Positions 388 to 558 of a stretch of 64,000 bases of DNA are shown here, in pieces (the stretch's first letter is position 1; the number at the start of each line of letters is the position of its first letter). The position numbers and the translations under genes are program-made. This DNA is from an uncultured Granulosicoccus sp. (lineage in GTDB: Bacteria; Pseudomonadota; Gammaproteobacteria; Granulosicoccales; Granulosicoccaceae). The notes beneath the pieces were generated by a model. The model made no database searches. It saw nothing but the letters and a program-made list of their open reading frames with translations, and had not been told where the DNA came from. Where the stretch lies: assembly GCA_947495035.1 (NCBI GenBank), contig CANLXI010000012.1:1-64000 (forward strand). The letters are read 5' to 3'.

Positions 388-558
388 CCGTCACTCCCGT
401 CACTCCCGTCACTCCCGTCACTCCCGTCACTCCCGTCACTCCCGTCACTCCCGTCACTCCCGTCAACCCCGTCAACCCCGTCAACCCCGTCAACCCCGTC
501 AACCCCGTCAACCCCGTCAACCCCGTCAACCCCGTCAGCCCCGTCAGCCCCGTCAGCC
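388..558. repeat. 9-bp tandem array, 19 units in three blocks (8+8+3)
   Basis: The array has 19 contiguous 9-bp units without interruption: eight CCGTCACTC (388-459), eight CCGTCAACC (460-531) and three CCGTCAGCC (532-558). Only positions 7 and 8 of the unit differ between blocks, and each block is pure. This suggests expansion by slippage or unequal crossing-over after single founder mutations. On the minus strand each unit junction gives a run of three or four G separated by five or six bases, which fits the usual G-quadruplex motif. There are no unique spacers, so it is not a CRISPR array. All frames through it are open because the unit contains no stop codon; this is not evidence of coding. 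Confidence 0.97.

Follow-up and report, generated by a model that had tools for sequence, protein, structure and literature searches.

The window, a 64,000-nucleotide stretch from an uncultured Granulosicoccus sp., begins at a contig end, and its first base falls before a 16S gene. The rRNA operon leader that opens it (Table 1) has further copies in the same genome: positions 1–249 are 97% identical to a second location and 93–247 are 94% identical to a third, both within the conserved stretch 1–330, and the two closest species, G041 and G012, carry three copies each. The P1 candidate at 242–215 was the sole minus-strand promoter match within positions 1–1300, and the region around it is kept in the other rrn leaders of the same genome and in those of the two other species; the GC-rich discriminator after TAGAAT is as expected of an rrn P1, which it putatively is. 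Leader copies that extend further show a boxA-like sequence (the reverse complement of TTGTAAAAGAGC). Measured from that same sequence, the 16S 5' end is approximately 215–240 bp further on in three other species of the genus. Several tandem promoters seem to be present in the leader (window 1–330, and also on contig C3 of G000, the genome of the window), and the similar stretches GACCGAGCCGCCTATCTTA and GACCGAGCCGTCTACTTTA within it suggest an internal promoter duplication.

One leader copy, copy A, adjoins the lipoprotein-like gene in all three genomes (G000, G012 and G041); the neighbours of the other two copies are, in our reading, a tyrosyl-tRNA synthetase-like gene and a hydrolase-like gene. 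Orthologues of the lipoprotein-like gene were found in G012, G041 and G001. Read from its flanking features, the spacer is divergent, with the rRNA operon running left and the lipoprotein gene right. An earlier interpretation made from the letters of the window (the sequence-only reading) had placed the small lipoprotein gene on the right correctly, but had overlooked the rRNA-operon promoter region on the left.

Table 1. Features of the spacer that holds the array and of its surroundings, in window coordinates.
Feature	Position	Strand	Basis
Conserved rRNA operon leader and promoter region	1..330	-	Sequence copies in genome and relatives
Putative rRNA operon promoter P1, TTGCCT-16-TAGAAT, GC-rich discriminator, leftward	215..242	-	Promoter search
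Tandem array, 19 nine-bp units	388..558	.	9-mer split and TRF
Block 1, 8 x CCGTCACTC	388..459	+	9-mer split
Block 2, 8 x CCGTCAACC	460..531	+	9-mer split
Block 3, 3 x CCGTCAGCC	532..558	+	9-mer split
Conserved box before lipoprotein gene, TTTGTGACTACCATCAAG, possibly promoter -10 or leader	704..722	+	Alignment
Small lipoprotein-like gene, 152 aa, no Pfam match	749..1207	+	ORF and Pfam
ChaC family gene, neighbour marking synteny	1225..1779	-	Pfam

A 9-mer split of the array returned three pure blocks and no further unit, exactly as the sequence-only reading had described them, and the gap of about 190 bp that it gave to the lipoprotein gene was also accurate, the array ending 190 nt before the ATG. 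TRF called the array at 388–555 (period 9, 18.7 copies, 98% match, score 210). The copy number of 19 is provisional, as the assembly is a draft in which other contigs frequently terminate within arrays of this kind. Shuffled contigs totalling 1.2 Mb yielded none of this class, so the array is not a product of chance; its short unit is repeated head to tail far beyond random expectation, as in a bacterial long simple-sequence repeat, or minisatellite. Its unit pattern was found at no second place in its own genome and in none of the 26 other genomes of the genus. Exact matches to a G-rich 26-mer of the array came from 11 records of unrelated bacteria, and their scatter over unrelated phyla suggests convergence. 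The region had zero matches to known RNA families in Rfam, and a hairpin was rejected: the G-rich strand folded worse than its own shuffles (z = 2.6, in a program that has no quadruplex model).

In a three-species alignment the spacer was conserved to approximately position 330 and again at the box before the lipoprotein gene; the stretch between, which holds the array, could not be aligned. Conserved sequence on both sides ends short of the array. The array lies approximately 145 bp upstream of the P1 -35 element and approximately 145 bp upstream of the box, outside both conserved promoter zones. In the same spacer, G012 has an unrelated 13-bp unit in 11.8 copies and G041 an unrelated 18-bp unit in 6.3 copies, so that other species carry other units in place. 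The earlier suggestion of length variation was therefore borne out between relatives, where turnover of both length and sequence is extreme; constant length among close relatives, together with no quadruplex folding in vitro, had been named as the sign of an inert minisatellite, and this spacer varies. The variation swaps entire units, pointing to a minisatellite with no function tied to its sequence. The three species are approximately 89% identical in protein and are too distant for single expansion steps to be seen. On the other side of the lipoprotein gene, just after it, G041 has a 39-bp tandem duplication (L051:4008–4085), and TRF called no tandem duplication at the matching place in the window. 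Part of the corresponding locus in G023 reads N.

Across syntenic contigs of the three species totalling 1.2 Mb, in which a simple script based on codon usage called the genes, we identified 75 arrays built from 72 distinct units. The sequence-only reading, which treated the array as a single locus, had missed this genome-wide population. Most arrays were intergenic (58/75), though intergenic DNA amounts to only about 12%, and 35 of these 58 had periods of 7–9 bp, with a mode of 8 bp. Arrays inside genes bore the mark of a frame filter, the period being divisible by three in 17/17, against 15/58 of the intergenic arrays (P = 2 × 10−8). There was also a bias towards gene 3' ends: arrays occupied 19/109 convergent spacers (17%), 21/410 tandem spacers (5%) and 2/168 divergent spacers (1%; P = 1 × 10−7), and in 20 of 26 tandem cases the array was closer to the stop codon of the upstream gene. 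Units turned over rapidly between species. Six pairs of orthologous spacers had an array on both sides, with different units in all six, and in a further 46 pairs only one member had an array, that member usually being the longer spacer. One convergent spacer measured 3 bp in G000 (C3, 126303–126306) and 205 bp in G041 (C13, 131944–132149), where it was filled by a 35-bp unit in 5.5 copies.

The 400-kb samples contained 18 arrays in G000, 27 in G041 and 18 in G012, and if that of G000 is typical its genome would hold roughly 300. The array at 388–558 is probably one among several hundred unrelated, fast-changing spacer arrays. We found zero arrays in 150 kb of Escherichia coli K-12 and 50 kb of S. 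meliloti pSymB, both small controls. Several contigs end inside arrays (G000:C12:198099–198244, G000:C3:1–137, G041:C7:1–86 and G012:C18:1–85); draft assemblies break there, so longer arrays are likely to be under-counted. On a larger scale, a piece of G000 contig C6 (40001–60000, L108) has two stretches, 7879–9825 and 10435–12310, each with about six copies of a 315–324 bp unit; their periods are divisible by three and they probably encode a giant repeat protein.

Long simple sequence repeats with units of 5–11 nt are already known as a class, and large GC-rich genomes are richest in them; in an earlier survey, as two later reports describe it, heptamers are commonest and slippage is the proposed cause (PMC4692102, PMC4679880). 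Our arrays resemble this class in unit length, intergenic bias, large host genome and multiples of three within genes; they differ in a mode of 8 bp rather than 7, and in that nearly every array has its own unit. Xanthomonas and Nostoc possess one quadruplex-forming heptamer family, GGGNATC, which is rare between divergent genes and in two related Xanthomonas species lies mostly between the same genes (PMC4692102). Our arrays are likewise tandem, intergenic, rare between divergent genes and near stop codons, and the one at 388–558 shares the quadruplex potential; however, GGGNATC is a single family genome-wide, whereas the units here are unrelated and none is common to the species. The minus-strand units at 388–558 (GGGAGTGAC, GGGGTTGAC and GGGGCTGAC) are neither GGGNATC nor GGGGA(C/T)T, and the pattern is confined to one locus instead of being dispersed over the genome. 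By unit and distribution the array falls in the general long simple repeat class, outside the GGGNATC family. The TAACTGA direct repeats of Beggiatoaceae, one unit genome-wide in 2–6 copies just upstream of start codons (PMC4679880), share with our arrays a short unit, an intergenic tandem arrangement and a marine gammaproteobacterial host, but our arrays are unit-diverse, longer and avoid gene starts. In the satellite survey of Subirana and Messeguer most bacteria were array-poor (PMC6749651); the arrays described here are, like some of the prokaryotic satellites in that survey, for example on Burkholderia chromosome II, numerous, local and scattered over the genome, although the survey counts units of at least 10 nt and its densities are not directly comparable with our roughly 37–75 arrays per Mb. 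The open literature that we searched, with incomplete coverage, contained no description of repeats in this genus.

We consider it highly probable that the array is a long simple-sequence repeat that is young and confined to its species, one outcome of recurrent neutral birth, slippage growth and loss, filtered by selection. A short duplication would arise in mid-spacer, in the poorly constrained stretch that separates the lipoprotein gene from the rRNA-operon promoters, and would grow by local slippage or unequal exchange among neighbouring copies. Point variants would then arise and be amplified in turn, leaving three pure blocks. The identical process would act all over the genome and in close relatives on any unit, most often of 7–9 bp; selection would remove arrays that break reading frames or promoters, and the survivors would turn over between species. 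Replication slippage as the motor, and neutrality, are what we infer from these patterns. The block structure at 388–558 is consistent with slippage, and the several rounds of expansion proposed in the sequence-only reading fit local amplification. Identical neighbouring units were clustered in general, with 273 pairs observed across arrays against 141 expected, so three pure blocks are what such amplification normally leaves behind. Growth from ancestral sequence is only a proposal, as none of 48 array-free orthologous spacers contained an exact single-copy seed of the array units and a seed test allowing mismatches gave a weak signal (0.59 ± 0.05). End-joining was rejected as the source of duplications, Ku (PF02735) being absent from G000, G012 and G041. 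Among the 27 genomes of the genus only G023 had a Ku (NHEJ) match (G023:C1:515237–515455).

Counted against a random draw, the array is unexpected in one respect: it occupies a divergent spacer, the rarest class, yet an array is present there in all three close species. Such recurrence at this single spacer suggests a local hotspot. Strong leftward transcription of the rRNA operon might cause negative supercoiling behind the promoters, or disturb replication forks, so that repeats are repeatedly born and lost; as a rival or an addition to the neutral reading this is possible but less likely than not. All three species carry an array here (3/3), with differing units, compared with arrays in 2/63 divergent spacers of 250–450 bp. 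Arrays also flank rrn loci elsewhere: the tyrS side of the second rrn locus in G041 carries CTCACCTG (8 bp) in 9.8 copies, an rrn flank in G039 carries the 6-bp unit ACTTCT in 13.5 copies, and one rrn locus of G014 is flanked by two short arrays, including an 8-bp unit in 4.6 copies. Recurrence pooled over other orthologous spacers was mildly raised (6 observed, 2.8 expected, P = 0.04). However, only one of the six flanks of the other two rrn loci in the three species has an array, most other species lack rrn-flank arrays, the locus was chosen because an array was present, and the numbers are small. The broader proposition, that these large-genome species are unusually active in forming arrays with always new units of about 8 bp and that the rrn spacer is a true hotspot in which rrn transcription or replication conflict makes arrays appear, vanish and reappear in each species, is one we think possible but doubtful.

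It had been suggested that the array could act through G-quadruplexes. The motif itself is as described: the minus strand has 18 G-tracts of at least three (ten of four and eight of three) with loops of 5–6 nt, the G3+N1–7 rule for at least four such tracts with loops of 1–7 is satisfied, and the G4Hunter score is 1.43. Folding of this strand might tune how strongly the lipoprotein gene or the rRNA operon is transcribed, or stall replication, and the G-rich heptamer repeats of Xanthomonas and Nostoc do fold in vitro (PMC4692102). We nevertheless regard a regulatory quadruplex as improbable. The same-spacer arrays of G012 and G041 have no GGG run and no quadruplex motif, the motif occurs in just 9/58 intergenic arrays of the three genomes, and the array stands clear of the conserved promoter zones on both sides. 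Judged by these comparisons, the quadruplex potential would be incidental and a quadruplex function finds no comparative support; the likeliest view is that the array arose as a side product of slips in DNA copying and is no regulatory quadruplex.

Some pathogens switch the expression of surface-protein genes through variable arrays that lie upstream of them (described in PMC4679880), and the array might by analogy be a length-variable switch (phase variation) of the lipoprotein gene, its copy number altering promoter spacing. This is very improbable given that the array stands well upstream of the box that precedes the gene and does not overlap the reading frame, that units and spacing are not kept between species, and that arrays genome-wide prefer 3' ends and convergent spacers. 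Least credible of all is that the minus strand, where frames that stay open across the array give GVT/GLT or VDG/SDG repeats, encodes a small collagen-like (Gly-X-Y) protein: any 9-bp unit that lacks stops leaves all frames open by default, the ORFs begin with TTG within or beside the array and were not called by codon usage, and the relatives' arrays have periods of 13 and 18 and unrelated sequence. The array does not qualify as a real gene with start, conserved frame and homologues.

The comparison corrects a tempting functional reading of this locus: a textbook quadruplex motif near a gene proves to be a single sample from a genome-wide population of arrays with unrelated units. Should the high rate of birth and the hotspot at rrn be confirmed, the genus would be a good natural system for the birth and loss of minisatellites, the effect of transcription on their turnover would be observable in it, and the arrays would also be usable as strain-typing markers.
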